A stretch of 64,000 nucleotides of DNA, taken from positions 231,528-295,527 of the forward strand of contig CAWUHX010000287.1 in assembly GCA_963922205.1 (NCBI GenBank), read 5' to 3'. Position numbers and translations under genes: made by a program. How positions within the stretch are numbered: the stretch's first letter is position 1; every line of letters starts with the position of its first letter. The notes beneath the pieces are model-generated. The model was given only the letters and a program-made list of their open reading frames with translations, was not told the origin of the DNA and searched no databases. This document shows, one piece after another, positions 35,001-57,200 of the stretch. This DNA comes from Romanomermis culicivorax (taxonomy: Eukaryota; Nematoda; Enoplea; Mermithida; Mermithidae).

Positions 35001-38000
35001 TAAAAATTGTAAAAAAATTTTTGTGAAAAAAATGTAAAAAAAAATTTATTAAAAAATATCGAAAAATTTTGTAAAAAAAAAAAAATTTTTTGTGCGAAAA
35101 GTAAAAAAAAGTTGCCAAAAAAAATTCAGAAAATTGTAGAAAAAAATTTGTAAAAAAATTGAAAAAATTTTATGAAGAAAAATTTTGAAAAAATCTGGTC
35201 AAAAAATAGAAAAAATCCCTGAAAAAGTTGCTATAGAAGAATTTTAAAATGTAAAACAATAAAAAAAAGTTTAGGGGAAAAAAATCGTGTACTTTGTCAA
35301 AAAATTGAAAAAGAATTTGTGAAACGATTTGTAAGAAAATTTTGTAAAAAAAAATTGTGAAAACATTACAAAAATGAATTTTCATAAAAATTGCAGAAAA
35401 ATTTTGCGGGAAAATAAAAAAAAATTAGTTGAAAAATGTAAAAAAATTGATAAAAATTTTTGCGAAGAAATTTTTAAAAAAATAAATTGTCTATAAACCC
35501 GGAAAATCGTGAAAAAATTTTGTAAAAAAACTACAAAAAATTGTAAAAAATAAAAAGAAATTTTATGAAAAAATTGAAGAAAAAAATCTGGTCCAGAAAT
35601 TTGAAAAAAAATCCGCAAATAAATTGTGGAGAAAAATTGTAAATAAATTAAAAAGAAGAAAAAATTAAAAAATTGTCAAAAAAAATATAAAAAAATTGTA
35701 AAAAGATTTGTAGGAAAAGTTTAAAAAATCGTTTGAAAACGTTAGAGAGATTGTAAAAAAATTTTGTAGAAGAAATCAAAAAAAAAATTGTGAAAAAATA
35801 TTTGGGGAAAATTTATTTTTTAAAAGAAAAGTTCTCCCAAAATTTATTATTTTTCACGTGAATTTATGAATTTTCATGGAAAAATGGATTTTTTTCAAGA
35901 AATTTGCATAAATTTCCAATTTTCTTTGTTTTATTTTGCGTAAAATTAAATCTTTTATTTAACATTTTTTTTGTGATATAGAATTCAAAATTTTCAATTG
36001 AAAATTCAGCTTTTTTCACAAAAATTTTCTTTCTAAAATGGAAATATTTCCAAGTCGTTTCTATAGCGAAAAAATTAAATTTTCGTGTAAAAATTTGCAT
36101 AAATTGTTTTTCATCCGTTTAAAATTAAATTTTTTCAAAATTTTTTAACTTTGTTAGGTAAAATTGAAATTTTTCATGAAAATATTCAGTTTTTTTCCAC
36201 GAAATTCTTTCTAAAATTGATCATATTGGTGGATTTCCACCAATTTTTTTCCGACAAAAAATTCAAATTTCTTGCTAAAATTTGTATAAATTTCAAATTT
36301 AAAAAAAAAATTTCAAAAATATGAATTTTTTTCAATTTCAAATTTTAAAAAAAAATGTAATTCTAAACTTTTCAGGTATGATCGAGGACTTATCCGAAGC
36401 TTTAACTTCAATCGGACGCAATTGTCGTTTTCGATTTTTAAAATCATTTTCTCAATTGGACGATATTTGCCAACCATTAATCGACGGAAAAGGCCCTTCG
36501 AACGGCTTGCAAATTACGTTACCTTTGAACCGGAAATTATTCCGAACCTTGACCGACGACCGCGATCCGACTTTTTCCGACCCCGGAATTTGGTTCAAAG
36601 TGAGAAAATTTAGCTTAGGCTTATGCTTAGGCTTAGGGTTAGGGTTAGACTTGGGCTTAGGCTTAAGCTTAGGCTCAGGTTTAGGCTTAGGCTCAGGCTT
36701 AGGTTTAGGCTTACACTTAGGCTTAGGCTTAGGCTTAGGCTCAGGGTTAGCGTTAGACTTGGGCTTATGCTAAGGCTTAGGCTTTGGCTTAGGGTTAGAC
36801 TTGGGCTTATGCTTAGGCTTAGGGTTAGACTTAGGCTTAGGGTTAGGCTTAGACTCAGATTTAGGCTCAGGCTTGGGGTTAGACTTAGACCTAGGCTTAG
36901 GGTTAGGCTTGGACTTAGATTTAGGCTTTGGTCTGGGGTAAACTTGGGCTTAGGCTTAGGCTTAGGCTTAGGGTTAGACTTAGTCTTAAGCTTAGGGTTA
37001 CGGTTAGACTTAGGCTTGGGCTTAGGCTTAAGTTTAGGCTTAGGCTTATGCTTAGGCTCAGAGTTAGACTTGGGCTTATGCTAAGGCTTAGGCTTTGGCT
37101 TAGGGTTAGACTTGGGCTTATGCTTAGGCTTAGGCTTAGGGTTAGACTTAGGCTTAGGGTTAGGCTTAGACTCAGATTTAGGCTCAGGCTTGGGGTTAGA
37201 CTTGGGCTTAGGCTTAGGCTTAGACTTAGGGTTAGGCTTTAGCTTAGACTTAAACCTAGGCTTAGGCTTGGGCTTAGACTTAGACCTAGGCTTAGGGTTA
37301 GGCTTGGACTTAGATTTAGGCTTTGGTCTGGGGTAAACTTGGGCTTAGGCTTAGGCTTAGGGTTAGACTTGGGCTCATGCTTAGGCTCAGGCTTAGGCTT
37401 AGGCTTTGACTTGGGCTTATGCTTAGGCTTAGGCTTAGGGTTAGACTCAGGCTTAGGCTTAGGATTAGGCTAAGACTTAGATTTAAACTTAGGGTTAGGC
37501 TTAGGGTTGAGCTAGGACTTAGATTTAGGCTTAGGCTTGGGGTTAGACTTGGGCTTAGGCTTAGGCTTAGACTTAGTCTAAAGCTTAGGGTTACGGTTAG
37601 ACTTGGGCTTATGCTAAGGCTTAGGCTTTGGCTTAGGGTTAGACTTGGACTTGGGCTTGTGCTTAGGCTTAGGGTTAGACTTGGGCTTATGCTAAGGCTT
37701 AGGCTTAGGCTTAGGCTTTGACTTGGGCTTATGCTTAGGCTTAGGCTTAGGGTTAGACTCAGGCTTAGGCTTAGGATTAGGCTGAGATTTAGATTTAGGC
37801 TTAGGGTTAGGCTTAGGGTTAGGCTTAGACTCAGATTTAGGCTCAGGCTTGGGGTTAGACTTGGGCTTAGGCTTAGGCTTAGACTTAGGGTTAGGCTTTA
37901 TCTTAGACTTAGACCTAAGCTTAGGCTTAGGCTTGGGCTTAGACTCAGACCTAGGCTTAGGGTTAGGCTTGGACTTAGATTTAGGCTTTTGTCTGGGGTA

Positions 38001-41000
38001 AACTTGGGCTTAGGCTTAGGCTTAGGCTTAGGGTTAGACTTGGGCTTATGCTTAGGCTCAGGCTCAGGCTTAACGTTAGACTTTGGCTTATGCTTAATCT
38101 TAGGCTTAGGGTTGGACTCAGGCTTAGGCTTAGGGTTAGGCTGAGACTTAGATTTAGGCTTAGGGTTAGGCTTGGACTTAGATCTAGGCTCAGGCTTGGG
38201 GTTAGACTTCGACTTAGGCTTAGACTTAGGGTTAGGCTTTAGCTTAGACTTAGACCTAGGCTTAGGCTTAGGCCTTTGTGATTAGGATGGAATTTGAACA
38301 AAAATGTGAGAAAAAAGGTAATTCTTTTCGATTGAGAGTTCAATTTTTTTCTGAAAGTAATCTGGGCTAATTCTTCTTGAAATGAGGAAAAATGCATTTT
38401 TTCCAAATCGAACATTCGAATTTTCAACGCAAATTAATGTAAAAATGCACTTTTTGCATGAAAAATTCACATTTTTGGAAAAAAAGTTTGAGGAAATTCA
38501 GATCGAAATGCCGGTTGAAATGAGATTTTCCTAGGGAAAATTTAGTAAATTAATGTCAAATTCAGAAAAAAAAATGTAATTTTTTCATTAAAAATTTCGA
38601 TTTCTTTCTCAAAAATTAAACTGAATTTCGGGTCAAAATGTAAAGAAAAATGTTATGTTTGTGGGGGGAAATCCTGAATTTTCGAAGAAAGTTTGGGAAA
38701 AATGCGATCGAAATTCGAAAAAAGTAGGTCTTTGATTGGAGTTTTTGGGTTTTTCTCAAAAAAATTATTGAAAATTGGCGTCACAATGCAACAGAAATGC
38801 AGATTTTCATCAAAAATTTTCGAAATTCAGACCAAAATGCAGAAAAAAAGTGAAGTGTTATCTTCGAAAATGTTTATTTTAAAAAAAATTTCGAAAAATC
38901 GGATCAGAAGGCGGAAAATTGTTACTTTTGCCATGGAAAATTATATTTTTTGAATTTATTTTTCTAAAATTCTTTTTTGAAACATTTTTCAAAAATTTTT
39001 TTCCATAAAATATACACCGAAATTTTTAAAAATATTTCGATCAAAAATTAATTTTTTGTGGAATTTACATTTAAATTTAAAAAATGTGTATTTTCGATTA
39101 AAAATTTTAATTTTTTAATTTTTTTTGAAAAATTCACATCGAAATTTTCAAAAAATTTAATTTTTGGATCAATAATTTCAATTTTTAATTTTTTTTGTAA
39201 AATTTACATCGACATTTTAAAAAATTATATTTTTTGATAAAAATTCTAATGATAGAAATATTTCTTCTTCTAAATTTTACACCAAAATTTAGAAATGTAA
39301 TTTTTCGAGCAAAAATTTTAATTTCCGAATTTTTTTTGTCGTAAAATTTACGTCGAAATTTGAAAAAAATTATATTTTTCTATTTGAAAGTCTAACTTTT
39401 GTAATTTATTTCCGTAAAATTTGGACCGAAATTCAAAAAGTGGAATTAAACGATTGGAAATTTTAATTTTTTTAGAGTGTTTTTTAAATTCACATCGACA
39501 TTTTTAAAAATGCTTTTTTGAATCAAAAATTCAAATTTTCAAAAATTTTTTTGTAAAATTTACAAAAAAAAATTTTTTTTTTGTTTTTTTCAGATTTTCA
39601 AATTTTTTTCAATTTTTTTTTAGATTCATCCGGTTCTTTTCACCGTTGGACTAAATTACGAAGAAACTTTAGCCAAAACTATGGGCGGTTTAAATTTAGA
39701 AAGGCAATTAAATCAACGAGCTTTGGAACATTACGAATCGTACGTTAGAAAATTTTGCGCTCATTTTTCGGACGAAAATTTGGAAAAAAATTTACAAGTT
39801 AGTAGCGAATTTTGCCGAAAAATTATTTTTTTCCCGAATTTTTTTCTTAAAATTTTAGAATTTTTAAATTTTTCTCCCAAAATTGGAAATTTTTTCCGAA
39901 TTAATTTCTATTTCGAGAATTTTCGCAATTTTGTTGGAAAATTCTGGGAATTAATAACAAATTCAGTGTCAAAATACTAAAAAAGTAAATTTTATAGGAC
40001 AAAAAATGAGGAAAAAATTTTAATTTTCATTTTTTTCCGCTTTTATTCCAAAAATTTTGCCCACATTTTAGAATTTCGGCTGAAAATTGCTTGGAGTAAT
40101 AGCGGATTTAGCACCAAAATTTTAATTTCAAACGAATTTGAAAAGACAAAAAATTAGTCAAAATTTTAATCTAGTTTTCATTTATTGGCGTGATCTCTCA
40201 TTTTTTTGATCGGTCAGCACCCGAAAATGTGTGCAAATCCGGTTGCTATTGACAAGCGGTGACATCGAGGCCGATTTTTCACATAATAAGCACCCGAAAA
40301 TGTGTGCAAATCCGGTTGCTATTGACAAGCGGTGACATCAAGGCCGATTTTTCACATAATAAGCACCCAAAAATGAGTGCAAATCCGGCTGCTTAGAAGC
40401 TGGGACAACAGTGCAGTTTTTTGAGTCAGCAACAGAAACATCAAAGCAGCTTTTTCTGCACAATTATCACCCGAAAATGTGTGCTAATCCGGCTGCACAA
40501 GTCGGCGACATTAAAGCAGTTCTTTGGCACAATCAACACTCAAAAATGTGTGCAAATCCGGCTGCTTAGAAGCAGCGACAACAACGCAGTTTTTGAGCTA
40601 ATAGTGGAAACATCAAAGCAGCTCTTTCTGCATAATTATCACCCAGAAATGTGTGCTAATCCGACTGCATAAGTGTAGTGACATGGAAGCAGTTTTTTGC
40701 ATGATCATCACCCAAAAATGTGTGCGAATCCGGCTGCTTAGGTGTGGCAGCATCAATGCAGTTTTTTGTGCAGTCAGCACCCGAAAATGAGTGCATAGCC
40801 GGCTGCTTACGGGGGGGAAGCAACATGAATGCAGTTTTTTGAGTCAGCAGCGGAAACATCAAAGCAGCTTTTTCTGCATAATCATCACCCGGAAATGTGT
40901 GCTAATCCGACTTCATGAGTGCAGTGACGTGACATCACAGTAGTTTTTTGTGCAGTCACCACCCGAAAATGAGTGCAAATCCGGTTACACAAGGGGGCAA

Positions 41001-42448
41001 TATGAAAGCTGTTTTTTTGCACAATCAGCACCCAGAAATGTGTGCGAATAAGGCTGCAAAAGGGTGGTGACATCAAAGCTGGGTTTTAGGTGCTGGCAGA
41101 GCCGATTCCTTTGCACCCGAAAATGCGTGTCAATCCGGTTGTCTAGAGCGGCAACATAAGAGCAGTTTTTTGGGTGTGGCAGATAAGACCATCTTTTCTT
41201 TGGTCAGGGTCGGCGACATCAAAGCAGTTTTTTTTGGGTGGCGACTACGTGGGCGGAGTTTGAGCTATATGGGCGGAGTTTGTGTGCAAAATAAGAAATT
41301 TTCATTTTTTCAGACTTTATTGGACAATGTTCACTGGAATTTAGCTCAAAATTGTTCGAAAAATGTTGAAAAATTTTCAAGTTTCACGTTTTTTGCAGGA
41401 TCATCACCCGAAAATGTGTGCAAATCCGGCTGCATAGTGGCGGCAACATCAAAGCAGTTGTTTCTGGGCAAAGTTAAAAACAGTTCTTTTGTGGGTCAAG
41501 GGCAGTAAGCAGATTTTTCTGCACCCGAAAATGCGTGCAAATCCAGGATGCCTAGGGGCGGTGACATAAGAGCAGTTTTTTGGGTGTGGCAGATAAAACT
41601 AGTTTTTTATTGGTCAGTGCGGCGACATCAGAGCAGTTTTTTTCGGGTGGCGAGCTATGTGGGCGGAGTTTGAGCCAAATGGGCAGAGTTTACCTATTTG
41701 TGGGCGGAGTTTGCGTGCAGAATCCTAAATTTCCATATTTTTCAGATTTTATTGGACGATGTTCGCTGGAATTTAGCTCAGAAATTATTCAAAAATTTTG
41801 AAAAACTTTTAATTTTCACGTTTTATGCAGGATCATCACCCAAAAATGTGTGCAAATCTGGCTGCATAGTGGCGGCAACATCAAAGCAGTTGTTTCTGGG
41901 CAAGGTTAAAAACAGTTTTTTTGGGTCAGGGGCGGCGACATCAAAGCAATTTTTTCAGGTGGCGAGCTACGTGGGCGTTAGTTTGAGTCGAATGGGCGGA
42001 GTTTACGCCAAATGGGCGGAGTTTACCTATTTGTGGGCGGAGTTTGCGTGCAGAATCCTAAATTTCCATATTTTTTCAGATTTTATTGGACAATATTCGC
42101 TCGAATTTAGCTCAAAATTGTTCAAAAAACGTGGAAATTTTTCAATTTTCGCGTCGTCTAAATTTTTTACTCGCCGGTCAAATGATCCTATGTTGCAAGA
42201 GCGGCAAAGATCGGACGGCCATGGCCGTCAGTTGCGACCAAACGGAAATTCTTTTCGAACGAGGTCTAGCCCCTTCTAGCTTTTCGCGCCAGAAAATTTT
42301 GGACGCCGTCCGCACGTCTGGGTCTCGTTTGGAAAATACGTTGAAGAACGTTGGCGCCAAACGTTACGCTTTTACGCATTTACAATTGTCGTTTATGCCG
42401 CAAAATTACCGGCCGCCAAAAGGCACGTACGGAAAAGGTCAAACTTGA
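20863..42448 (+). CDS. INPP4: Inositol polyphosphate 4-phosphatase (INPP4 type), seven exons, 772 aa
   Basis: Exons 20863-21090, 24975-25277, 30457-30703, 33836-34609, 36376-36599, 39624-39797 and 42080-42448 total 2319 bp in one frame, ending TGA. The family hydrolyses the 4-phosphate of PI(3,4)P2 to give PI(3)P, mainly on endosomes, and damps PI3K/Akt signalling. Family blocks occur in order: MAESKLAFHVP (exons 1/2), [10 protein letters not shown] (exon 2), [12 protein letters not shown] (exon 4), [10 protein letters not shown] (exons 4/5), [10 protein letters not shown] (exon 6), and the CX5R site [10 protein letters not shown] (Cys 689, Arg 695) followed by [14 protein letters not shown] and [11 protein letters not shown] (exon 7). 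Vertebrate INPP4A/B are about 920-980 aa. The missing part is the N-terminal C2 domain, so the product is either short or incompletely seen. Confidence 0.9.
21120..24960. repeat. INPP4 intron 1 satellite, 197-bp hairpin monomer
   Basis: Fills nearly all of intron 1 (21091-24974). Each monomer contains ATGACCCAAAATAGGGTGCT, AATCCGACTTCCATGTT, GTCAAAGGAGGAGCTGAACT and a hairpin whose arms are ATACTTTGTACAGC and GCTGTACAAAGTAT around an AATCAATA...TATTGATT inner stem. Two adjacent monomers, at 22577 and 22774, appear identical. Copies left of about 22400 are more diverged. The last hairpin ends about 18 bases before the exon 2 acceptor. Confidence 0.92.
24975..25277 (+). CDS. INPP4: INPP4 exon 2
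   Basis: Residues 77-177. Acceptor TTTCTACAG, donor GGGA|GTAAGG, phase 0 at both ends. It carries [10 protein letters not shown], then [19 protein letters not shown] and ATNLHIQRF, one of the clearest INPP4 signatures. Confidence 0.88.
25330..30060. repeat. INPP4 intron 2, AAT/TTAAT-rich low-complexity array
   Basis: Most of intron 2 (25278-30456) is built from short units such as AATTTAATAATAATAATTCA, with scattered TTTTTTTGAATGATAAT blocks. There is no stable long period. The last 400 bases (30060-30456) are non-repetitive with nothing recognised. Confidence 0.88.
30457..30703 (+). CDS. INPP4: INPP4 exon 3
   Basis: Residues 178-259 and the first base of 260. Acceptor TTTTTTTTTAG, donor TCGA|GTAAAT (phase 1). 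Encodes [20 protein letters not shown], matching the 'GAPAAHCQGFKSGGL' region of vertebrate INPP4, then a charged helical stretch. Confidence 0.82.
30720..33780. repeat. INPP4 intron 3, pyrimidine-rich tandem array
   Basis: Intron 3 (30704-33835) is T-rich with recurring 'TTTTTATGTCTTTATTTTTA', 'TCAATTTTTACCATTTCTTT', 'TTTTTCCGTTTTCTCATTTT' and 'TTCCTCAATTTTTTTCATTT'. A unit of about 245-260 bp is recognisable from about 31000 to 32520. Open frames here are Phe/Ser/Leu runs. Confidence 0.88.
33836..34609 (+). CDS. INPP4: INPP4 exon 4, with internal 11-aa repeats
   Basis: Residues 260-517, the largest exon. Acceptor TTTTTTTCAG, donor AAAG|GTGTAA, phase 1 at both ends. The first part is weakly conserved. 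The middle holds a Ser/Cys tract and five LHQxENxxKST repeats. The last third ([12 protein letters not shown] to [12 protein letters not shown]) matches the conserved helical region before the phosphatase core. Confidence 0.87.
34141..34316 (+). repeat. Coding minisatellite, 33-bp unit, about 5.3 copies
   Basis: Units start at 34141, 34174, 34207, 34240, 34273 and 34306, each beginning TTACA(T/C)CAAT. They translate to an 11-residue [11 protein letters not shown]-like repeat in frame with the phosphatase. The region is variable in INPP4 proteins, so expansion is probably tolerated. Confidence 0.9.
34610..35820. repeat. INPP4 intron 4, A-rich repeats
   Basis: The first two thirds of intron 4 (34610-36375) consist of 'TTGTAAAAAAATTTTGTGAA'-like units of about 20-25 bp, and a ~440-bp stretch near 34850 is echoed near 35220. 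The remainder (35820-36375) is AT-rich without a clear repeat. Confidence 0.8.
36376..36599 (+). CDS. INPP4: INPP4 exon 5
   Basis: Residues 518-592. Acceptor AACTTTTCAG, donor CAAA|GTGAGA, phase 1 to 0. Starts [13 protein letters not shown] (vertebrate counterpart MLEDM/MIEDM) and ends near DPGIWFK. The TTAGGC array of the next intron begins about 12 bases after the donor. Confidence 0.87.
36613..38276 (+). repeat. Interstitial telomere-like TTAGGC array in INPP4 intron 5
   Basis: About 1.66 kb of hexamers, mostly TTAGGC mixed with TTAGGG, TTAGAC, TTGGGC, TCAGGC and TTATGC, all with the G-rich strand on the plus strand. TTAGGC is the nematode telomere repeat. The array starts about 13 bases after the exon 5 donor and ends abruptly at GGCCTTTGTGATT. 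Variant hexamers recur in groups, which suggests amplification of larger blocks after seeding. Open frames reading LGLGLG are artefacts. Confidence 0.93.
38277..39623. other. Rest of INPP4 intron 5
   Basis: AT-rich, with loosely repeated 'AAAATTTACATCGAAATTTT' phrases after about 39000. No gene or element is seen. Confidence 0.6.
39624..39797 (+). CDS. INPP4: INPP4 exon 6
   Basis: Residues 593-650. Acceptor TTTTTTTTAG, donor ACAA|GTTAGT. Encodes [20 protein letters not shown], the counterpart of the PVLFNVGINEQQTLAERF signature, then [17 protein letters not shown]. Confidence 0.9.
40200..41560. repeat. INPP4 intron 6 satellite, CACCCGAAAATGTGTGCAAATCCGG core
   Basis: The core CACCCGAAAATGTGTGC followed by AAATCCGGCTGC repeats roughly every 65-110 bp from 40210 to 41540, linked by 'GACATCAAAGCAGTTTTTT'. 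It is clearly related to the intron 1 monomer core (CACCCAAAATGGGGTGC, AATCCGA, then GACATCAAAG). In the right part it is interleaved with exon-like copies and GGGCGGAGTTT repeats. Confidence 0.88.
41314..41388 (+). pseudogene. Exon 7 partial copy 1 (pseudo-exon)
   Basis: After TTTTTTCAG it reads [17 protein letters not shown] in the exon 7 frame, against [17 protein letters not shown] in the true exon. Homology stops before the catalytic motif and the satellite core takes over. The frame stays open to a stop at about 41508. Confidence 0.82.
41746..41821 (+). pseudogene. Exon 7 partial copy 2 (pseudo-exon)
   Basis: After ATTTTTCAG it reads [19 protein letters not shown], clearly the same segment with more changes. 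It shares the upstream 'CAGAATCCTAAATTTCCATA' with the true exon 7, so this copy and the real one are the closest pair in flanks. Confidence 0.82.
42080..42448 (+). CDS. INPP4: INPP4 exon 7 with the catalytic CX5R motif
   Basis: Residues 651-772 and the TGA at 42446-42448. Acceptor TTTTTTCAG. The P-loop CKSGKDRT has its nucleophile Cys at 42194-42196. Vertebrate INPP4 has Ala where this has Gly. The exon continues to the family C-terminus ending GTYGKGQT. The first ~75 bases are duplicated twice upstream as exon-like copies. Confidence 0.92.
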   Translation: MLLDNIRSNLAQNCSKNVEIFQFSRRLNFLLAGQMILCCKSGKDRTAMAVSCDQTEILFERGLAPSSFSRQKILDAVRTSGSRLENTLKNVGAKRYAFTHLQLSFMPQNYRPPKGTYGKGQT

Positions 42449-45090
42449 CGATCATATTTGAAAATTGACACGAAAAAAGTTTCTCTGCGGTGTAATTAGT
42501 TGTTGAAATTTTTTTCCAAAAAAAAGTAAATTTATATTTCCTTGGATTATATGCTGTATCTAGTAGTTAATCGGCAAGTGTTTATTGTTGATCCAGTTGC
42601 TGCTATGTTGATTCACTTTACTGTAGAAATTGAATTACTATCGATTTTTTTCTTGTACGTCGCTGTTTTTCTCTCTCAGAAAATGTCGGATTATTTATTG
42701 GTGGTTGTTTGGTTGGTGGAAAAAAATATTGGGCATGTTTCTCGTTGCCGAAATTCCTTTCGAGAAACTTTGATAACCAAAATTTTACTTTTCGCAAAAA
42801 TTTTTTAGTAAATTCGTGTTCAGAAAATGCAATTTTTGACGAGAAATTTTTTTAAATTACTCGTTTTTTATCGAAAATTCTAATTTTTGGAAAAAGTTCG
42901 CTAAAATTCGGTCGAAAATTTTAATTTTTTCCCAAAAAAAATTAATTTTCGATGGAAAATTTCAATTTTCTTTGCTGAATTTTCTACAAATTTACGTGGA
43001 AAATGTATCGAAAATTTTAAATTTCCGTTCAAAAAAAGCAAACGAATTTCGATAATAAAAAAAGCAAAAAAAAGGAAAAAACTCGAAATTTAGCAAAAAA
43101 AGTGCGAGAGTAGCAAAAAAGACAGAAAAGCAAATTTTGAATACAAAAAAAGCTAAAAAACAAAGAAAAACAGAAATTAAAAAAAATGCACGAAAATCAA
43201 AATTTGACAGAAAAACGGGTCAAAAAGTGGCTGTAAATTTGGAAAAGAAACGAAAAAAATCAATTTCGAAGATGAAATGAAGAAAAACCGAAATATAAAA
43301 AGCAAAAAATGAAGGAAATCTGGCATGAAAAGTTAAAAAAAACTATTTTTTTCTTTTTTCCATATTTTCCTATTTTCTACTTTTTTCAATTTTTACTTTT
43401 TACATTTCATCGTTTTTTTACTTTTTATTGTTTACTCTTCTTTACTTTTTTCATTTTTCCAACTTATAATTTTTTTGTCTGGATTTTTTATTTTTTTTCT
43501 TTACCTTTTACTTTACATTTTGTCTACTTTTTAGTTGTTTTTTCATTTTTTTACATTTTTCGTCTATTTTTGATTTTCATATACATATTTCTACTTTTTA
43601 CATTCATTTATTCCTTTTTTCTTTTTTTGTTTTTTTCTACTTTTTTCTGAATTTTTTCTACAGTTTTCGTTTTTCAAATGTTCACTTCTTCTAAATTTTT
43701 AATTAAATTTGTTTTAGTTTTTACATTTGTTATCTCTTTTTTCCTATTTTTTACTTTTTTTCTTTTCTTTCTGCTTTATATACATTTTTTCTACTTTTTA
43801 CTTTTTTGAATTTTTATTTCGTTACTATTTGTATTTTTTGTTTACTTCTTTCTATTTGTAGACTTTTGGCTTTTATTTATGTACTTTTCATTTTGTTTAC
43901 TTTTTACATTTTATTATTTTTTCTATTTTTCTTTACTTTTTATTTTGTTCTACTTTTTGGTTTTTTTACTTTTCATTTTTTAACTTTACGTTTTTGTTAA
44001 ATTTTTATTTTTACTACTTAAATTAATTTTTTTCACTTTTCTTCATTTCCAATGTTTCTTCTATATTTACTTCTTACGTTTTTTGAATTTTTATTTTTCC
44101 TTGCTTTTTATTTGTCCTTACTTTTTCACTTATTATATTTTGTTCATTTTTTTTAATTTTTCCCTTTTTGCTTTTTACTGTTTACTTGTTTCTTTTTAGT
44201 TTTTTGTTAACTTTTTACTTTTATTTATATTTTTTACATTTTTCGTCAACTTTTGCTATTTAATCATACACTTTTCTTATTTTTTTATATACATTTTCAA
44301 ATTTTTTTTTACATAATTTCGATTTTTTTGTTTTTTACAATTTGCTTTTTCTTTCTTTACTTTTGTTCACTTTACATTTTTTTACTTTTTTGGATTTTTT
44401 TTTACTTTTACTTTTTTTAAATTTTACATTTTTATTAATTTTTTATTTATATATTTTTACTGTTTACATTTATTTTTTCTGTTTTTCTCTACTTTTCGTT
44501 TTTTCACTCGTTTTTCGTTTATTTTTATTTTTACATTTTTTTATTTTTTACTCTATTTTTCTATACTTTTGTTTAGTTTCTACCTTTTCCACTTTTTACT
44601 TTTTTGGAATTTTTTTTTCTTTTTTGCTACTTTTCTTTATTTTTTCCGCTTTTTAAATTTTGTTATACTTATCCTTTTTTAAATTTTTACATTTTTTTAA
44701 CTTTTGATTTTTAATCATATTTTTCATTTTGTTTTATTTCTTACATTTTCTTTTTCTTCTCCACTTTTTTTACTTTACATTCTTCTACTTTTTTAAGTTT
44801 GTTTGAATTTTTTCACTGTTTATGTACTTCTACTTAGTTTTTAATTTTTTCAATTTTTATCATTTTTGTCTACTTTTTATTTTTATTTACATTTTTTCTT
44901 TTTACATTAATTATTTTTTTCCTTTTTTAGATTAATTTTTTTTTAATTTTTATTATTATTCTTTTACTTGTACATTTATTTTTTTACTTTTTTCATTTAT
45001 TTTTTTACTTTTTACATTTATTTTTTTACTTTTACATTTTTTTTCTTCTTTTTTCTACTTTTTGGTTTTTTTCTACTCTTTTTTTGCTTT
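42449..45090. other. Spacer between INPP4 and SLC36 genes
   Basis: The first few hundred bases should be the INPP4 3' UTR. An AATAAA lies near 43051. 42880-43330 is A-rich. From about 43340 to 45090 the plus strand switches to a T-rich pyrimidine tract with 'TTTTTACTTTTT' and 'TACATTTTT' repeats that runs to the SLC36 acceptor. No gene is seen. Confidence 0.6.
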
Positions 45091-45103
45091 TTTCAGCTTC
45101 TAT
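45087..45103 (+). promoter_or_regulatory. Acceptor just before the SLC36 ATG, candidate SL trans-splice site
   Basis: CTTTTTTCAG ends at 45096 and the ATG lies 7 bases on (45104). The preceding kilobase is pyrimidine-rich and non-coding. This mirrors the arrangement at INPP4. Confidence 0.55.
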
Positions 45104-45263
45104 ATGTCCAACGCCGACGGCCCCCAAAATCGCCGAGATCAACGTCCCGACGAGGCCGAATCGTCGCCGCCCGACGACGAAACGCCGTTGAATCCGCTGG
45201 GTGATTTACGCGACGGCGATTCCATGATCAGCCCGCACCGGGCTTTGATGGGCCTTTTGAAGA
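45104..45263 (+). CDS. SLC36: SLC36 exon 1
   Basis: Residues 1-53 and the first base of 54. The N-terminal tail is rich in Asp, Glu, Pro and Arg (RRDQRPDEAESSPPDDE) and leads into SPHRALMGLLK. The donor AAGA|GTATGG lies within a 10-bp sequence repeated at the start of exon 2. Confidence 0.87.
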
Positions 45264-48200
45264 GTATGGTCGGGCGGCGCCCGTAGCTGTAATTTGGGGG
45301 GGGGTTGGGGACCCCTACCCCCTTGGGGGTGACGCTATACCCCCCCCCCAAACTCGAACAAATTGGCAAAAAACGGTTTTTTGGGAAAAATTTTTTAAGG
45401 TTTTTCGACCCTCCACCACAAAAAATTTTTTCGGAAATTTTGGGACCCGGATAATTTTGGACCCCCCACCCTGAAACCCACCCTGAAAATTTGCCCCCCC
45501 TCCCCCCCCCCAATTGGTCGGACTTCTTATAGGTATGGTCGGACCCGGTTGCCTCTCGTTGCCCTACGGTTGGCGCCAGGGCGGTTTGGCCTCGTCGTTT
45601 GTGTTGTCCATTTTTATAAGCCTACTAAATTTGTATTGTTCGTTCCAAATGATCAAAACGGCCCAATATTTGTGTAAAATGTAAGTTTTTTTCAATTTTT
45701 TTTCTGTTTTTTTGCTTCTTTTTTATTTTTTTTTTGCACTTTTTTATTTTTCGCTTTTTTTCTGCTTGTTTTCGCGTTTTTCCTTTTGCTTATTTTGTAC
45801 AGTTTTTCTGCAATTTTTCTGTTAGTTTTCTACTTTTTTCTGCTTTTTCCTTGTTTTCTTGCTTATTTTTTACTTTTTTCTAGATTTTTTTATATTTTTT
45901 ATGTTCTACTTTTTTCTGCTAATTTTTTCCTGTTTATTTTCCCCCTTTTTGTGGCAATTTTGCGCTTTCTTCCCGTTTTTTTTAATTTTTTACTTTTTTT
46001 CTTTTTTTAAACTGTTTATTTTTCTTATTTTTTCTGCTTTCAGTTCATTTTTCATATTTTTCTGTCTATTTTCCCCATTTTTTGCCTTTCCCGTGTTTTC
46101 TTGCTTATTTTTTACTTTTTTCTGCTTTCTGTCTATTTTTCCGTTTATTTTCCACTTTTTCTGTTTTCGTTTTTTTTTTGTTTTTTTTCAATTTTTCCGC
46201 TAATTTTTTTCTGTTTATTTTTCTTTTTTTTACTTGGAATTTTTTGCTTTTTCTTTAGTTTTTTATTTTTTACTTTTTTCTTTTTTCATCTTGTTCATTT
46301 CTCACTTTTTTCTGCTTATTTTCGGCTTTTTCCTTTTTTTGCTTATTATTTATTGTTTTCCTGCTTATTTTTCTATTTTTTCTGCTTTCTGCTCATTTTT
46401 CATATTTTTCTGTTTGTTTTCTACGTTTTTCTGCCTTTTCCTCGGTTTCCTGGTTATTTTTTTACTTTTCTCTGCTTTCTGATTATTTTTTCCGTTTATT
46501 TTCCACTTCTTTCTGTTTTTTTCACTTTTTTCGGCTCATTTTTTTCTGTTCATTTTTCCTTTTTTCTGGCAATTTTTGGCTTTTTCCTTTTTTTGCTTAT
46601 TTTTTATTGTTTTCCTGCTTATTTTTCTATTTTTTTCTGCTTTCTGCTCATTTTTCATATTTTTCTGTTTGTTTTCTACGTTTTTCTGCCTTTTCCTTGG
46701 TTTCCTGGTTATTTTTTTACTTTTCTCTGCTTTCTGATTATTTTTCCGTTTATTTTCCACTTCTTTCTGTTTTTTTTCACTTTTTTCGGCTCATTTTTTC
46801 TGTTCATTTTTCCTTTTTTCTGGCAATTTTTGGCTTTTTCCTTTTTTTTGCTTATTTTTTATTGTTTTCTTTTTTCATCTTGTTCATTTCTCACTTTTTT
46901 TGCTTATTTTCGGCTTTTTCCTTTTTTTGCTTATTTTTTACTGTTTTCCTGCTTATTTTCCCCTTCTTCCGCTTTCTGCCTATATTTCATATTTTTCTGT
47001 TTATTTTTTCTACTTTTTTTCTTTTTTTTACTTTTTTCTTGTTAGTTTTTGTTTTTTTGTAGTTTTTTGCTTATTTTTTACTTTTTCCTGTTCATTTTTT
47101 CCAAATTTTTTCTGGCTGTTTCGGCTTTTTTCCTTGTTCAAATGTTTAGTTCTTACTTTTTTCTGCTTGTTTTTGGCTTTTTTCCTTGTTCTTTTCTTGC
47201 ATATTTTTTACTTTTTTGTGCTCATTTTTTCCTTATTGTTTTTTTTCGGTATTTCGCTCATTTTTTTGCTTTTTCCACCTCATTTTAGTTTTTTTTCATG
47301 TTTTTTGCTTATTTTTACTTTTTTGTTGCTTATTTTTTCCTTTTTTTGCTGTTTTTCCTGTTTGTTTTTCCTTTTTTTTGTTTTTCGCTTTTTTCTGCAA
47401 TTTTTTTTTCTTTTTTTTTGCTTATTTTTTACTTTTTTTCCTGCTTATTTTTGGCTTTTTCACTTTTTTCTGCTGATTCTTTCTTGCTTATTTTTCACTT
47501 GTGTTCTGCGTATTTTTAGTTTTTTCCTTTTTCCACTTTTGTTCTGCTCATTTTAAGTTCTTTTCCTTATTTTTCAATTTTTTATTCATTTTTTCTGCTC
47601 ATTTTTTCCTGTCTGTTTTTCATATTTTTGTGCTTATTTTTAGTTTTTTCCTTGTTTTTTGTTTTTTGTTTTTGTTCTTTTTTGCTTACTTTTCCTTTTT
47701 TCTTCACCTTTTTTATTTTTTCCGGTGTTTTCGCTTACTCTTTCTTTTTTACTTTTTTGTTCTCATTATTCTCTTGCTGTTTTTTTTCTCACTTTTTGCT
47801 TTTTTTCGTTCTTCCGTTGCTTACTTTTTTCTTTTTACTTTTAAAAAATTTGTTTTTTCTCTTCTCATTTTTTTCTTGGATTTTTATCTATTTTTTCAAA
47901 TTTTAATTTTTTTTCTTTTTTTTTGTTGTTTGTTTTTTTTGTTAATTTCACTTTTTACTTTATTTTGCCTTTGATTTTTGTTTTATTTTTTTCAAGTTTC
48001 TACCATTTTCGAAATTTCTTCTATTTTTTTGCGTTTTTATCAATTTCTTTTTTATTTTTCTGCCGAATTTCTTTTTTTCTCCTTCGTTTATTGTCGAATT
48101 TTTTCGCAAATTTGGTTTTTCCTTTCGCTTTTTTTCTCTTTTTGTAAATTTCACTTTTTACTTTATTCTGCCTCTGATTTTTGTTGTTTTTTTCAAGCTT

Positions 48201-51200
48201 TTATCATTTTCGAAATTTGTTTATTTTTTGCCTTTTTTAACACTTTTTTACTGTTTTTCTGCCGAATTTCTTTTTTTTCTCCTCCATTTATTATCGAATT
48301 TTTTGCAAATTTAGTTTTTTTTCATTTTTTTCTTGGAATTTTATCTTTTTTCCAAATTTTAATTTTTCTAATTCTTCTTGTTTTTTTTTCTCTTTTGTAA
48401 ATTTTTCTTTTTACTTTATTCTGCCTTTGATGTTTTTCAACTTTTTACCATTTTCGAAAATTTTTTTTTCGTTTTTAATCACTTTTTTACTTGTTTCCTG
48501 CCGAATTTCAATTTTTTTTCTCCTTCATTTATTGTCGATTTTTTTGCAAATTTTTTTTCTATTCTCCTTTTTTTGATTTTTATCGTTTTTTCCAAATTTT
48601 AATCTTTTTCTGTTTTTTCTTTTTTTGTAAATTTTGACTTTTTACTTTATTTTGCCTTTGATTTTCGTTTAATTTTTTTTCAAGTTTTCACCATTTTCGA
48701 AGTTTATTAAATTTTTTGGCATTTTTTATCACTTTTTTACTGTTTTTTCTGCCGAATTTCTTTTTTTTCTCCTCCATTTATTGTCGAATTTTTTGCAAAT
48801 TTGGTTTTTTTCATTTTTTCTCGGATTTTTATCTTTTTTTCCTAAGTATAACTTTTCTTTTTAGTTTTTTTTTGTAAATTTCATTTTTAACTTTATTCTG
48901 CCTTTTGTTTTTTGTTTTGTTTTTTTTTCAAGTTTTTACCCTTTTCGAAATTTATTCAACTTTCTTGCGTTTTTTATCACTTTTTTACTGTTTTCCCGCC
49001 GAATTTAAATTTTTTTCTCCTTCATTTATTGTCGAATTTTTTCGCAAATTTGAGTTTTCTTTTTCATATTTTCTTGGATTTCATTTTTTCCAAATTTTAA
49101 TTTTTTTCTTTTTTTTTTGTTTTTTGTAAATTTCACTTTTTACTTTATTCTGCCTCTGATTTATGTTTTTATCATTTTCGAAATTTATTTCATTTTTTTG
49201 CGTTTTTTATCACTTTTTTACTGTTTTTCTGCCATATTTCAATTTTTTTCTACTTCAATCTAGTCGAATTTTTTGCAAATTTGTTTTTTCTTTTTTCATT
49301 TTTTTCTTGCAATTTTATCGTTTTTTTCAAAATTTTAACTTTTTCTGTTTTTTCTTCCAATTTTTTGTTGTAAATTTCTATTTTTTGTATAGTTCAAATC
49401 GAGAATCGTTGGATTATGGTCATTTCGCCAAAAAAGTTTTCGACCACGGCCCGTCGGATCGCCTAAGACGAAAATCCAAAACGATCATGTATATAGCCAA
49501 CGCGGCCAATATTTTCTACCAAATCGGCGTTTGCGCTATACAAATCGTTTTTATGGCCACCAATTTACAACAAGTACGAATTTTGTAAACTTGAAAAAAT
49601 TGAAAAAAATTTTTTTTTCCAAAAATTTGAAAAATTAAATTTTCAATTTTTTAAAAAAGAAAAAATTTTTTTACGACGAAATTCACACTTTGAAAAACGG
49701 AAAAAAATCAATTTTTGACCAAAAATCCTTCAAATATTTATTTTTTACACAAAAAAATGTTTTTTTTTCTACAAAATTTATCACGGAAATGTGCCAATTT
49801 TCTACCAGAATTTTCCACATTTTCGCCAAAATATCTGATTTTTCAACAACATTCTTCAATTTTCTATGAAAATTGCCTAATTTCACATCGAAATTTGTCA
49901 ATTTTCCCACTTTTCCATTAAAATTTTCTAATTTTCAATATTTTTCATCGAAATTCCCATATTACTGTCAAAATTTTCAGATTAACTTTGAAAATTCACC
50001 CATATTTTATCGTAAATTTTCAATTTTGTAATCAATATTTGCCAGTTTTCTATCAAAATTTGCCTATTTTCATTGAAATTTTCTAAATTTTCCATGAAAA
50101 TTTCTCAATTTTTCTATTAAAATTCCTCAATTTTTCATCAAATTTAGCATATTTCTGTCGAAATTTAATCAGTTTCCATCAAAATTTGCTAATTTTCCAG
50201 TGAAAATTTCAAAATTTTCTATCAAAATTTTTCAAATTTCATCAAAATTTTCCAACTTCCTATCGGAATTTGCTTATTTTCCATCAAAATTTTCCAAATT
50301 AATATCAAAATTTTCCAATTTTCTATGGAAATCATCAAATTTTCTTGCGAAATTCTCTATTTTGCCAATTTTCTATCAGAAATGTGCCAATTTTCTATCA
50401 GATTTTTTGAAATTTCCATCAAAATTTGCTAATTTTCCATCAAATTTTCTATGAAAATTTCCCCTTTTTCTATCAGAAATTTCCAAATTTGCATCAAAAT
50501 TTCAAATTTTTCACCAAAATTTCCAACTTTTTCACGATAATTCCCTAATTTTTCATCAGAATTTCCCATTTTCGATCGAAAATTTTTTATTAAAATTTGA
50601 GAATTTTTCAACAAAATTCAGGAATTTCCATCAAAATTTGCTAATTTTTGATCAAAATTTGCTAATTTTTGATCAAAATTTTTCAATTTTTCATTAAAAT
50701 CCTCAAGATATCTACGAAAGTTCACCATTCTCTATCAAAATTTGCCACTTTCTTATCAAAATTTGTGTCTAAATATTTCAATTTTTCATCAAAATTCCAA
50801 GTTGTTGTGTCCAAATGTGCCAATTTTTCGGCAAAATTTTTCAATTTTCCATCAAAATTTGTTAATTCTTCATTAAAAATTTCAAAATTTGTATCAAAAT
50901 TTTTTAATTTTTGATCAAATTTTCGGAATTTTTCAGTAAAATTTTTTCATTTTTCATCCAAATTTCTAATTTTTCTATCAGAATTTACCAATTTTCTGTC
51001 AAAATGTGCCAATTTTCTATGGAAATTTTTCAATTTCATATCAAAATTAATGCATTTTTATCAAATTTTCTGAATTTTTCGGCAAAATTTTTCATGTTTC
51101 TGTCAACCAATTTTCGTCGAAATTTGCCGATTTTCCATAGAAATTCTCTGGATTTTTATCAAAATTTGTCAATTTTGCATTAAGTTTCTGCAAATTTTCA

Positions 51201-54200
51201 TCAAAATTCGTCAACTTTCCATTCAAATTCTGCAAATTTTAATTTTTTATATAAAATTTTTCAATTTTATATCAAAGTAAATGCAATTTCGATCGAACTT
51301 TCTGAATTTTTGATAAAAAAAATTCCGAATTTTTTATAAAAAATCTCCGAATTTAACATCAAAATTACTGATCTTTCTGTCAAAATATGCGAGTTTTTCA
51401 TCAAAATATTTCCATTTTCTGTTAAAATTTCAAATTTTTCCATAATAATTTCCTATTTTTTATCAGTATTTTTCAATTTTCGATGAAAATTTTTTTTATG
51501 AAAATTTAAGATTTTTCCAACAAAATTTAGGAGTCAGCGTCGAAATTTCAAAAAATTTTCATCAAAAGTTTCTGAATTTTTCATCAAATTTTCTGAATTT
51601 TCTTTAAAAATTCGCTACTTTTTCGTCAAAATTTCTGAATTTTGAATCAATTTTTTTTTAATTTTCCATCCAAATTTCTCATTTTTCTATCAGAATTTAC
51701 CGATTTTCTGTCAAAATGTGCCAATTTTCTATGGAAATTTTTCAATTTCATATCAAAATTAGTGCATTTTTATCAAATTTTCTGAATTTTTCATCAAACT
51801 TTCTTATCTTTCTGTCAAAATTCACCAATTTTCTGTCAAAATTTTCCAATTTTGCATTAAAATTTCCCAAATTTTTATCAAAATTTGTCATTTTCCTATC
51901 AAAGTTTGCCAATTTTATGTGAAAATTTCAGAATCTTTTAATCAAAATTCTTCAAATTTTTGTCAAAATTTCCTATTTCTCTGTCTAAGTTTGCCGATTT
52001 TCCATCAGAACTCCTCATTTTTGTGTCCAAAATTGCCGATTTTTCACCGAGTTTTTCAATTTTGTATCAAAATTGGCCAATTTTTCATTAAAATTTTCCG
52101 AATTTGTATCAAAATTTCAGAATTTTTCATGAAAATTTTTCGGTTTTCATTAAAATTTTCGAATTTTTCATCAACATTTTCAAGTTTTCTATCAAAATTG
52201 CACATTTTTCTGTCATAATTTGCAAATTTTTAATCAAAATTTTTAAATTTTCTCTTAAAATTTCCAATTTTTGCATAAAAATTTACCCCAATTCTCATCA
52301 GAATGTTTCAATTTTCGATCATTATGTTGAATTTTTTATCAAAATTCAGGAATTTTTCAACAAAATTGAGTTTTCCGTCAAAATTTTAAAAAATTTTCAT
52401 CAAGATTTGCCAATTTTTCAGCAAAGTTTTGGAATTTTTCATCAAAGTTTCTGAATTTTGAATCAATTTTTTTTTTAATTTTCTAACAGAATTTTTGAAT
52501 TTTTCATCAGAATTGCCAATTTTCTATCGAAATTTGGCAATTTTCTATGAAAAATTTTCAAATTTCTATCAAAGTTAACGCATTTTTGATCGAATTTTCT
52601 GGATTTTTGTCAAAATTTTCCAATTTTGGAATAGAATTCTTGGAGTTTGTATCAAAATTTTCCAATTTTGTATTGAAATTCCCCAAATTTTTATCAAATT
52701 TTTCATTTTTCTACCAAAATTTGCCAATTTTCTGTGAAAATTTCTTAATTTTTTATATTTCTTTGTCCAAGTTTGCCAATTTTCTATCAAAATTGGTCAA
52801 TTTTTCAATAAAATTTTCCAACTTTGTATCAAAGTTTTAGAATTTATCTAAAAAAGTTTCCAAATTTGTATCAAAATTTTAGAATTTTTTGAATTTTTCA
52901 TCAAATTTGTCCAATTTTTCATAAAAATTTAGCAATTTTTTGTCAAATTCTCTGAATTTTTTGCCAAATTATCTGATTTTTTATATCAAAATTCTTCAAA
53001 TTTTCTCAAATTTCCCATTTCTCTGTCCAAGTTTGCCAATTTTCTATAAAAATTTGTCAATTTTTCACTAAAATTTTCCAACTTTGTACCAAAATTTCAG
53101 AATTTTCCAATAAAATTTTCCAAATTTGTATCAAAATTTTAGAATTTTTCGAATTTTTCATCAAATTTTGTCCAGTTTTTCATAAAAATTTAGGAATTTT
53201 TTGTCAAATTCCTCTGAATTTGTTGTCAAATTATCCGAATTTTTATATCGAAATTCTTCAAATTTTTATCAAAATTTCCAATTTCTCTGTCGAAGTTTGC
53301 CAATTTTCTATAAAAATTGGTCAATTTTTCACTAAAATTTTCCAACTTTGTATCGAAATTTCAGAAATTTCCCATAAAATTTACCAAATTTGTATCAAAA
53401 TTTTAGAAGTTTTGGAATTTTCCCTTAAAATTCCCGAAATTTAAATCAAAATTTTACAATTTTTCTTAAAAATTTTCCAAATTTGTATTAAAATTTTAGA
53501 ATTTTTCGAATTTTTCATCAAATTTTTCATAAAAATTTAGGAATTTTTTGTCAAATTATCTGAATTTTTCATAAAAAAAAAGTTTCAAATTTTCTTTTTT
53601 TACAGATCGTCGAAAGTTTCGAAGGGACATCCAAATTGGATATGCGCCTTTACGCATCGATGATCCTTTTGCCTTTGATTTTCGTCAATTTGATCCGCGA
53701 ATTGAAAATGATCAGCATTTTGGCCGCTTTGGCCAATTTGATTCTACTTTTCGGCTTGATTATCATTTTACAAGCTTGTTTTTTGCAACAACCCAATCAA
53801 TTGTCCCGGGTTAAATTGGGCGCCAATTTTTTCGACACCATGTTATTTGTTGGAACGGCCATGTATACTTTTGAGGGGCAAGCTGCTGTAAGTTTTTGTT
53901 TTACTTCGTTTTTTTTGTTTATTTTTCACTTTTTTCCGCTTATTCTTTCTTTATTTTTTACTATTTTCTTTTTATTTTTCACTTTTGTCCAGTTATTTTT
54001 AGTTTTTTCCTTGTTTTTTTTTTCTTTATTTATTCTTGATTTTTTACTGTTGTTCTGTTTTTTCTGTTTATTTTTCCCTTTTTCCTGCTTATTTCTTCTT
54101 TTTTCCATGTTTTCTGTTTATTTTACCCATATTTTTCACTTTTTTCTATTTATTTTCAGCTTTTTCGTGGTTATTTCTACTTTTTTCCATGTCTTTTGAT

Positions 54201-57200
54201 TTTTTTACCTATTTATGCTTTTTCAATTTTTTCAGTTTATTTTTCACTTTTTTCTACTTATTATTTCTTTATTTTTTACTATTTTCTTTTTATTTTTCGC
54301 TTTTGTCCAGTTATTTTTAGTTTTTTCCTTGTTTTTTTTTCTTTATTTATTCTTGATTTTTTACTGTTGTTCTGTTTTTTCTGTTTATTTTTCCCTTTTT
54401 CCTGCTTATTTCTTCTTTTTTCCATGTTTTCTGTTTATTTTACCCATATTTTTCACTTTTTTCTATTTATTTTCAGCTTTTTCGTGGTTATTTCTACTTT
54501 TTTCCTTGTCTTTTGATTTTTTTACCTATTTATGCTTTTTCAATTTTTTCAGTTTATTTTTCACTTTTTTCTGTTTATTTTTCACTTTTTTCTACTTATT
54601 ATTTCTTTATTTTTTACTATTTTCTTTTTATTTTTCACTTTTGTCCAGTTATTTTTAGTTTTTTCCTTGTTTTTTTTTCTTTATTTATTCTTGATTTTTT
54701 ACTGTTGTTCTGTTTTTTCTGTTTATTTTTCCCTTTTTCCTGCTTATTTCTTCTTTTTTCCATGTTTTCTGTTTATTTTACCCATATTTTTCACTTTTTT
54801 CTATTTATTTTCAGCTTTTTCGTGGTTATTTCTACTTTTTTCCTTGTCTTTTGATTTTTTTACCTATTTATGCTTTTTCAATTTTTTCAGTTTATTTTTC
54901 ACTTTTTTCTGTTTATTTTTCACTTTTTTCTACTTATTATTTCTTTATTTTTTACTATTTTCTTTTTATTTTTTACTTTTGTCCAGTTATTTTTAGTTTT
55001 TTCCTTGTTTTTTTTCTTTATTTATTCTTGATTTTTTACTGTTGTTCTGTTTTTTTCTGTTTATTTTTCACTTTTTTCTACTTATTATTTCTTTATTTTT
55101 TACTATTTTCTTTTTATTTTTCACTTTTGTCCAGTTATTTTTAGTTTTTTCCTTGTTTTTTTTTCTTTATTTATTCTTGATTTTTTACTGTTGTTCTGTT
55201 TTTTCTGTTTATTTTTCCCTTTTTCCTGCTTATTTCTTCTTTTTTCCATGTTTTCTGTTTATTTTACCCATATTTTTCACTTTTTTCTATTTATTTTCAG
55301 CTTTTTCGTGGTTATTTCTACTTTTTTCCTTGTCTTTTGATTTTTTTACCTATTTATGCTTTTTCAATTTTTTCAGTTTATTTTTCACTTTTTTCTACTT
55401 ATTATTTCTTTATTTTTTACTATTTTCTTTTTATTTTTCACTTTTGTCCAGTTATTTTTAGTTTTTTCCTTGTTTTTTTTTCTTTATTTATTCTTGATTT
55501 TTTACTGTTGTTCTGTTTTTTCTGTTTATTTTTCCCTTTTTCCTGCTTATTTCTTCTTTTTTCCATGTTTTCTGTTTATTTTACCCATATTTTTCACTTT
55601 TTTCTATTTATTTTCAGCTTTTTCGTGGTTATTTCTACTTTTTTCCTTGTCTTTTGATTTTTTTACCTATTTATGCTTTTTCAATTTTTTCAGTTTATTT
55701 TTCACTTTTTTCTGTTTATTTTTCACTTTTTTCTACTTATTATTTCTTTATTTTTTACTATTTTCTTTTTATTTTTCACTTTTGTCCAGTTATTTTTAGT
55801 TTTTTCCTTGTTTTTTTTTCTTTATTTATTCTTGATTTTTTACTGTTGTTCTGTTTTTTCTGTTTATTTTTCCCTTTTTCCTGCTTATTTCTTCTTTTTT
55901 CCATGTTTTCTGTTTATTTTACCCATATTTTTCACTTTTTTCTATTTATTTTCAGCTTTTTCGTGGTTATTTCTACTTTTTTCCTTGTCTTTTGATTTTT
56001 TTACCTATTTATGCTTTTTCAATTTTTTCAGTTTATTTTTCACTTTTTTCTACTTATTATTTCTTTATTTTTTACTATTTTCTTTTTATTTTTTACTTTT
56101 GTCCAGTTATTTTTAGTTTTTTCCTTGTTTTTTTTCTTTATTTATTCTTGATTTTTTACTGTTGTTCTGTTTTTTCTGTTTATTTTTCCCTTTTTCCTGC
56201 TTATTTCTTCTTTTTTCCATGTTTTCTGTTTATTTTACCCATATTTTTCACTTTTTTCTATTTATTTTCAGCTTTTTCGTGGTTATTTCTACTTTTTTCC
56301 TTGTCTTTTGATTTTTTTTACCTATTTATGCTTTTTCAATTTTTTCAGTTTATTTTTCACTTTTTTCTGTTTATTTTTCACTTTTTTCTACTTATTATTT
56401 CTTTATTTTTTACTATTTTCTTTTTATTTTTTACTTTTGTCCAGTTATTTTTAGTTTTTTCCTTGTTTTTTTTCTTTATTTATTCTTGATTTTTTACTGT
56501 TGTTCTGTTTTTTTCTGTTTATTTTTCCCTTTTTCCTGCTTATTTCTACTTTGTTCCATGTTTTCTGTTTATTTTACTTATATTTTTCACTTTTTTCTAT
56601 TTATTTTCAGCTTTTTCGTTAGTATTTCTACTTTTTTCCTTGTCTTTTGATTTTTTTACCTATTTATGCTTTTTCAATTTTTTCAGTTTATTTTTCACTT
56701 TTTTCTGTTTATTTTTCACTTTTTTCTGCTTATTGTTCTTTTTTTCGCCTGCTTTTTTGCTTATTTTTTACTTTTTTCTGTTTTTTTCCTGTTTATTTTT
56801 CAATATTTCTTGCTTATTTTCAGTTTTTTCTTTGTTTCCTGCTTATTTGTTCTTAGTTTTCAACTAATGTTCTGTTTATTTTTACTTTTTTCTGCTTATT
56901 TCTACTTTTTCCCATGTTTTCTGCTTATTTTACTTTTATTTTTCACTTTCTTCTTCTTATTTTCAGATTTTCCCTGGTCTTTTGCTTTTTTACCTTTTTC
57001 TGCTTTTTTTCTGTTCATTTTTCACTTTTTCCAATTTATTTTTCAGTTTTTTTGGTTTATTTTACATTTTTCTGCTTTGCTTTTTATTTTTTTCTGTTTA
57101 CCTTTCACTTTTTTCTGCTTATTTTCAGTTTTTTAGCTTGTTCTTTGCTTTTTTTTTCTTTTTATCTGTTTATTTTTCAATTTTTTCTGCTTTTTTTTGT

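Follow-up and report, generated by a model that had tools for sequence, protein, structure and literature searches.

The question raised by this locus is how an intron can come to interrupt a coding sequence and leave the protein as it was. The 64,000 nucleotides of Romanomermis culicivorax DNA that we analysed, referred to as the window, carry exons of an SLC36-type amino acid transporter gene, and a sequence-only reading had taken the first intron of that gene to be a recent, introner-like insertion. We think it highly probable that a small inverted-repeat element did insert in an SLC36 coding exon and formed a coding-neutral intron 1, with an insertion that is older and an anatomy that is somewhat different from those first proposed.

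Intron 1 and its boundaries

The ten bases GTATGGTCGG that drew attention to the locus are present twice, at 45264-45273 and 45533-45542, both on the + strand and nowhere else in the window. The sequence has the form of a GT-AG intron here as claimed, but the extent of 45254..45542 given to it starts 10 bases early; the intron is predicted to be 45264-45532, and sliding the cut within the GTATGGTCGG repeat gives no alternative GT-AG pair. It has a GC content of 52%, against 24% in the next intron (45681-49392). The features, all on the + strand, are as follows.

45104..45263, +, coding part of exon 1, with the ATG at 45104; it ends AAG A in phase 1, the extent is from translation and the PAT1 alignment starts inside it
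45264..45532, +, predicted intron 1, GTATGG...TTATAG, 269 bp; its removal restores frame and homology
45264..45268, +, host GTATG, the predicted 5' splice site, outside both element and target duplication
45269..45281, +, 5' copy of the target duplication, GTCGG[GCGGC]GCC, to be compared with GTCGGACC
45282..45537, +, element copy, 256 bp, of the older CTTC-type subfamily
45282..45292, +, 5' terminal inverted repeat CGTAGCTGTAA; the family version is CATACCTGTAA
45494..45511, +, C-rich tract by the element 3' end, a candidate polypyrimidine tract
45527..45537, +, 3' terminal inverted repeat, TTATAG then GTATG (family version TTACAGGTATG); the AG acceptor is inside it and its last five bases open exon 2
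45538..45545, +, 3' copy of the target duplication, GTCGGACC, encoding V G P
45533..45680, +, exon 2, Aa_trans 6.2e-11, the first 5 bases being from the element
49393..49573, +, exon 3 of the same SLC36 gene, within the joint Aa_trans match
53606..53884, +, exon 4 in the extent put to Pfam, 93 codons from TTTTTTTACAG followed by ATCGTC, Aa_trans 1e-7; the end is provisional

Read without splicing the SLC36 frame gives SMVGRRP and then a stop. Removal of 45264-45532 joins AAG A to GT ATG GTC GGA CCC to give LLKSMVGPGC, and the statement that excision with one copy of the repeat kept restores the frame and KSMVGPGC is borne out, as the Aa_trans and PAT1 alignments both continue over the junction. 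With the exons joined, the peptide has a Pfam Aa_trans match at 2.5e-23 (residues 42-163) and a match to human proton-coupled amino acid transporter 1 (PAT1, 9v3t_A) at 4.6e-11 that is free of gaps at the junction.

The ten bases had been taken for the target duplication, and this part of the earlier proposal does not survive. The GTATG at 45533-45537 is assigned to the element because the family ends in GTATG (the 11-base end is exact in 46 of 55 copies), and the duplication proper is of 8 bp, GTCGGACC. The GTATGGTCGG repeat is on this reading made up of five coincidental bases, the host and element GTATG, and five bases of the 8-base duplication. The 5' copy of the duplication agrees with GTCGGACC at 7/8 positions if a 5-bp insertion is allowed, and at 4/8 ungapped. 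The 3' boundary of the intron thus lies 5 bases inside the element end and the 5' boundary 5 bases ahead of the duplication, with the length given by 5 bases of host GTATG, 13 of 5' duplication with its insertion and 251 of element minus its last five, for a total of 269. The earlier assignment of the AG to the insert and of the GT to the host was correct: the AG is inside the element inverted repeat, and the GT is in the host GTATG.

With regard to the rest of the gene, TTTTTTCAG is found at 45088-45096 of the window, 8 bases upstream of the start codon, and the SL1 leader (22-mer, up to 1 mismatch) has 0 occurrences in the assembly. The later introns (45681-49392 and 53909-57207) are long and extremely T-rich on the coding strand, and have tandem repeats within them, for example one with a 338-bp unit.

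The element family and the origin of the intron

The genome searched has 359,112,060 bases in 595 contigs. Queries with the insert and with its last 71 bases had 45 and 40 matches listed genome-wide respectively, the focal locus being among them in both cases, while the first 72 bases of the intron matched only themselves, which fits a decayed 5' end and a search tool that skips common words. The 26-base 3' end at up to 2 mismatches occurs 9,535 times in the 359-Mb genome (reversed control 0), so that sibling copies of the kind suspected at the outset are there in thousands, and the bare 11-base end CATACCTGTAM, taken as an exact match, occurs 16,955 times (reversed control 257).

We took a sample of 66 loci (L002-L008, L011-L069) picked by 3' end or similarity, and some of the conservation of the 3' end among them therefore stems from that choice; neither the 5' end nor the duplication played a part in the picking. 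From these there are 55 distinct copies with both ends and a target duplication of at least 7/8, which is 8/8 in 35 of them. The 5' end is exact in 43 of the 55 and the 3' end in 46, and lengths are 165-638 bp with 48 of the 55 under 250 bp. The family has the termini CATACCTGTA...TTACAGGTATG and makes a target duplication of 8 bp. At the 5' end the copies commonly read CATACCTGTA(A/C)TTGGGG, and at the 3' end ...CCCCAACTGGTCGGA(CTTC, CCTC or GGTC types)TTACAGGTATG, and the focal copy reads from CGTAGCTGTAATTTGG... through to ...GACTTCTTATAGGTATG. Read outwards, both ends have a C-tract followed by TTACAG and then GTATG, and resemble the SLC36 gene's own acceptors, which are TTTACAG and TATAG. 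The family is short and has terminal inverted repeats, target duplications and a high copy number, as in MITEs, the absence of coding capacity being judged from length alone. The focal insert scores 81 against the subfamily consensus, and 300 dinucleotide shuffles of it have a mean of 26, a standard deviation of 4 and a maximum of 47, so that the likeness exceeds chance. The claim that the intron is a transposon insertion in a coding exon is upheld. Rfam gave 0 matches in the window.

There are also related families that end in TTACAT or TTACAC and then GTATG, and so are without the AG acceptor (L070, L076, L079, L083, L086, L088, L096, L101, L106 and L051). One copy of this type is nested within the 638-bp element of L051.

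The hAT superfamily makes 8-bp target duplications of the form nTnnnnAn, and the P superfamily also makes duplications of 8 bp. The pooled duplication consensus in our family is nTYnnRAn, with T2 at 51% and A7 at 50%, and this fits hAT, though it is not exclusive to hAT. The hAT domain is abundant in the genome, with 150 scored of 1,837 candidates, and in a search for an autonomous partner TTACAGGTATG (up to 1 mismatch) was present in 0 of 20 3' flanks of 824-851 bp fetched from those 150. We therefore do not file the element as hAT.

We suggest that the intron arose as follows, by a mechanism that we regard as strongly supported. A non-autonomous DNA transposon with an 8-bp target duplication would have entered one SLC36-type coding exon of this clade I nematode, duplicating GTCGGACC. 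Host GTATG would have happened to stand directly before the target, and the element itself ends in TTACAG and then the same GTATG. The spliceosome would use host GTATGG as donor and the AG of the element inverted repeat as acceptor, so that the element GTATG takes the place of the host GTATG in the mRNA, with coding length and sequence unchanged. Later drift would account for the 5-bp insertion in the 5' duplication and for the decay of the 5' inverted repeat. Both the splicing of intron 1 and the order of these events are what we infer from the present state of the locus. From 110 pooled flanks we estimate that a target has GTATG immediately ahead of it with a probability of about 0.0008. Its presence here must be put down to survivorship, with presumably only the coding-neutral insertion having survived.

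Other copies of the family as possible introns

A family of about 10,000 copies, in which both ends are ready 3' splice sites with an exon-like GTATG, could be an animal intron generator, and many further introns of this nematode, now decayed past recognition, may then be derived from it. We see this as unlikely. If true, landing just downstream of a coding GT in the right register would give a near-neutral intron. The corresponding explanation for the locus itself, that the family is a genome-scale introner in a nematode and the focal copy one of many, we also hold to be unlikely, although its copy number and the likeness of its C-tract and TTACAG-GTATG ends to the gene's acceptors both speak for it.

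The focal register, GTATG-N8-end, is found 77 times genome-wide against about 14 expected from flank composition. The 77 comprise 15 face-to-face pairs (30 matches) and 47 singles. In the pairs exactly 8 bases separate two facing element ends, as at C3:925187-925216 and C4:217178-217207, an arrangement suggestive of two insertions with a target copy in common, in the order TSD-element-TSD-element. We read 40 of the 47 singles, and 18 of these lie directly against the end of another element. Of the other 22, several have a host repeat in common (L072 with L109, L073 with L074, and L077 with L080). AGGT five bases before the target, the donor register, is present at 92 sites, but 41 of these are AGGTATG, 30 of them in the face-to-face pairs, and the remaining 51 compare with about 71 expected, so that outside AGGTATG there is no enrichment and this counts against a genome-scale introner. 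The far element end was found in 25 of the 40 that we read from the 51.

Judging the same-register copies mainly by visual inspection, GC and open frames, we found a convincing host coding exon in none of the 80 read (40 of 47 GTATG, 40 of 51 AGGT), the survey covering recognisable copies in the focal register. Within that scope the many genic copies acting as introns that the term introner-like implies were not found in the samples and counts made. Twelve same-register pieces were put to Pfam, namely L093, L094, L098, L099, L104, L192 (which joins L104), L112, L124, L126, L127, L134 and the opposite strand of L192. L093, L094 and L099 may speak for a genome-scale introner: ahead of the donor each keeps a frame open for 41-48 codons, a possible host exon, the best Pfam E among them being 0.077. 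L104/L192 was considered as a second case of the focal geometry and rejected: its other strand matches an endonuclease-reverse transcriptase weakly (E 0.045, short of the cut-off) and it probably lies in a LINE. L126 resembles a retroelement by eye and had no Pfam match.

For 58 complete copies with long flanks there are 47 open frames of at least 45 codons that span the empty site, but the empty-site frames of the four copies put to Pfam (L045, L051, L005 and L006) had no match. The L051 frame is of 179 codons, and keeping both element ends would shift it; a frame neighbouring L045 matches reverse transcriptase weakly (2e-4, short of the cut-off). A further 20 places were fetched and 10 have complete copies, with no Pfam match for the two of their crossing frames that were put to Pfam (L189 and L172). 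A target preference for GTATG was also considered, and none was seen outside the 8 bp in the 110 pooled flanks.

Age of the intron and comparison with known cases

In the case of the focal copy an insertion in coding sequence remains much the best reading, but the sequence-only reading had called it recent, and there the evidence points the other way. Identity to the consensus of an 8-member sample of its subfamily is 76% over 189 columns, against 85-92% for the 8 sampled siblings, and copies of the most numerous subfamily (64 of 101 aligned) are at 86-98%. By this comparison the focal copy is old, and the perfect ten-base repeat is no measure of age because one of its copies encodes protein and the donor lies in the other.

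It is very unlikely that an older intron was already at this position and that the element landed inside it. Such an event probably did occur elsewhere: at L031 about 16 bases separate the end of the target copy from the first codons matched in an ANF_receptor exon (1.7e-16), and the family copy there probably went into an intron that was already present, or landed at its border. At the focal locus, however, removal of the element and one target copy would leave just the 5-bp insertion in the 5' duplication, and with the intron fully accounted for by element and host bases there is no space for an older one. A paralogue also lacks an intron at the site. An Aa_trans family search of the assembly gave 11 exons, and besides the focal gene one covers the intron 1 position, at C62:1128376-1128501, where it is uninterrupted and reads KALLTLAKGFVGTGCLSLPFAWKQGG, with Aa_trans 3-44 in one frame; the match runs into a TAA that we read as an intron start after GGLW. 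Intron 1 is thus absent in 1 of 1 paralogues that cover the site. The proposal that the position might be ancient in nematode SLC36 genes was addressed to this extent, in one paralogue from the same genome, and there the position is free of an intron. On a comparison of one paralogue in the same genome, we favour gain as more probable than loss in the paralogue.

It is just as improbable that the SLC36 gene is dying and the insertion a plain disruption of it. The unspliced reading does have an early stop, but exons 2-4 are open and match Aa_trans, as does a C-terminal exon (330-407) on the same strand 3.7 kb beyond the window end, and the gene therefore looks intact; in a dying gene the exact GT-AG restoration would be a coincidence without explanation. 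Finally, that the GTATGGTCGG pair is a product of tandem duplication or break repair, with the likeness to the repeat coming from common C and G runs, is extremely unlikely. The insert is indeed of low complexity and 24% diverged from the consensus, but it aligns with the family over its whole length, termini and interior alike, and shuffles that keep dinucleotides never reach its score.

We thus treat intron 1 as a well-resolved single transposon-born intron, of slightly unusual anatomy and of a kind already known. The introners described by Gozashti et al. (2022, PMC9860276) are like it in being non-autonomous with inverted repeats and target duplications, in keeping coding length, and in taking one splice site from the element and the other from the host; ours differs in being one genic case, in having the donor outside the duplication and in leaving five element bases in the exon. 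The Aureococcus introners (PMC9860276 Fig. 2F) also have an 8-bp duplication and element bases in the exon, 4 compared with 5 here, but those elements contain both splice sites and bring a gain of 12 bp, whereas our case has no net change, the host donor being located 5 bases ahead of the target. Amoebophrya introners are the subject of PMC7789003, and papers on tunicate (PMC13326754) and human (PMC12124190) are cited alongside this literature.

Introns from transposon insertion are given in the review PMC3443670 as 35 events in Oryza, Drosophila, Oikopleura and Zea. As in the focal case one insertion makes one new intron, but in the precise model presented there AGGT is duplicated on both sides, and at our locus the element end supplies the second copy of the motif. 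With Caenorhabditis, PMC9169325 has 168 gained introns with source sequence identified for none; these gains are like ours in being in a nematode and leaving the flanking coding sequence unchanged, and differ in that here the source family is identified. No prior report of this intron was found by title and start of abstract in one open-access literature collection.

A transposon terminus that replaces identical host bases means that a duplication lacking a splice site can still yield an exact intron. Maize Ds is said to have provided a case of an intron from transposon insertion (Giroux, 1994), and Tc1 was reportedly found to be spliced from C. elegans pre-mRNA (Rushforth and Anderson, 1996), in fresh mutant insertions and imprecisely. 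In both Tc1 and the present case a nematode DNA transposon would be removed by splicing, but ours is an exact intron in an assembled genome. The sources of gained introns in nematodes are seldom traced. At this locus the source and its target, the splice sites and the effect on the coding sequence can all be followed at single-base resolution in an animal genome.

The predicted splice is directly testable as RNA-seq exists, its reads having been mapped to assemblies for gene prediction according to the v2 assembly paper for Romanomermis culicivorax (PMC10879605), which also gives a repeat content of 68.2%; there is an earlier genome paper of 2013 (PMC3890508).

There are some further observations on the window and genome. 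Nematode cuticle collagen N-terminal domains have 50 matches in the genome, which, like the TTAGGC-type array at 36613-38273 of the window, indicates a nematode. At 42062-42445 of the window, on the + strand, there is an open frame containing YRPPK that had no Pfam match for the piece tried, and which resembles the terminal part of an inositol polyphosphate 4-phosphatase. The nematode telomere unit is TTAGGC, and at 36613-38273 of the window there is a degenerate 6-bp GCTTAG array (TTAGGC register) of about 277 copies with 72% match, which is telomere-like and interstitial.
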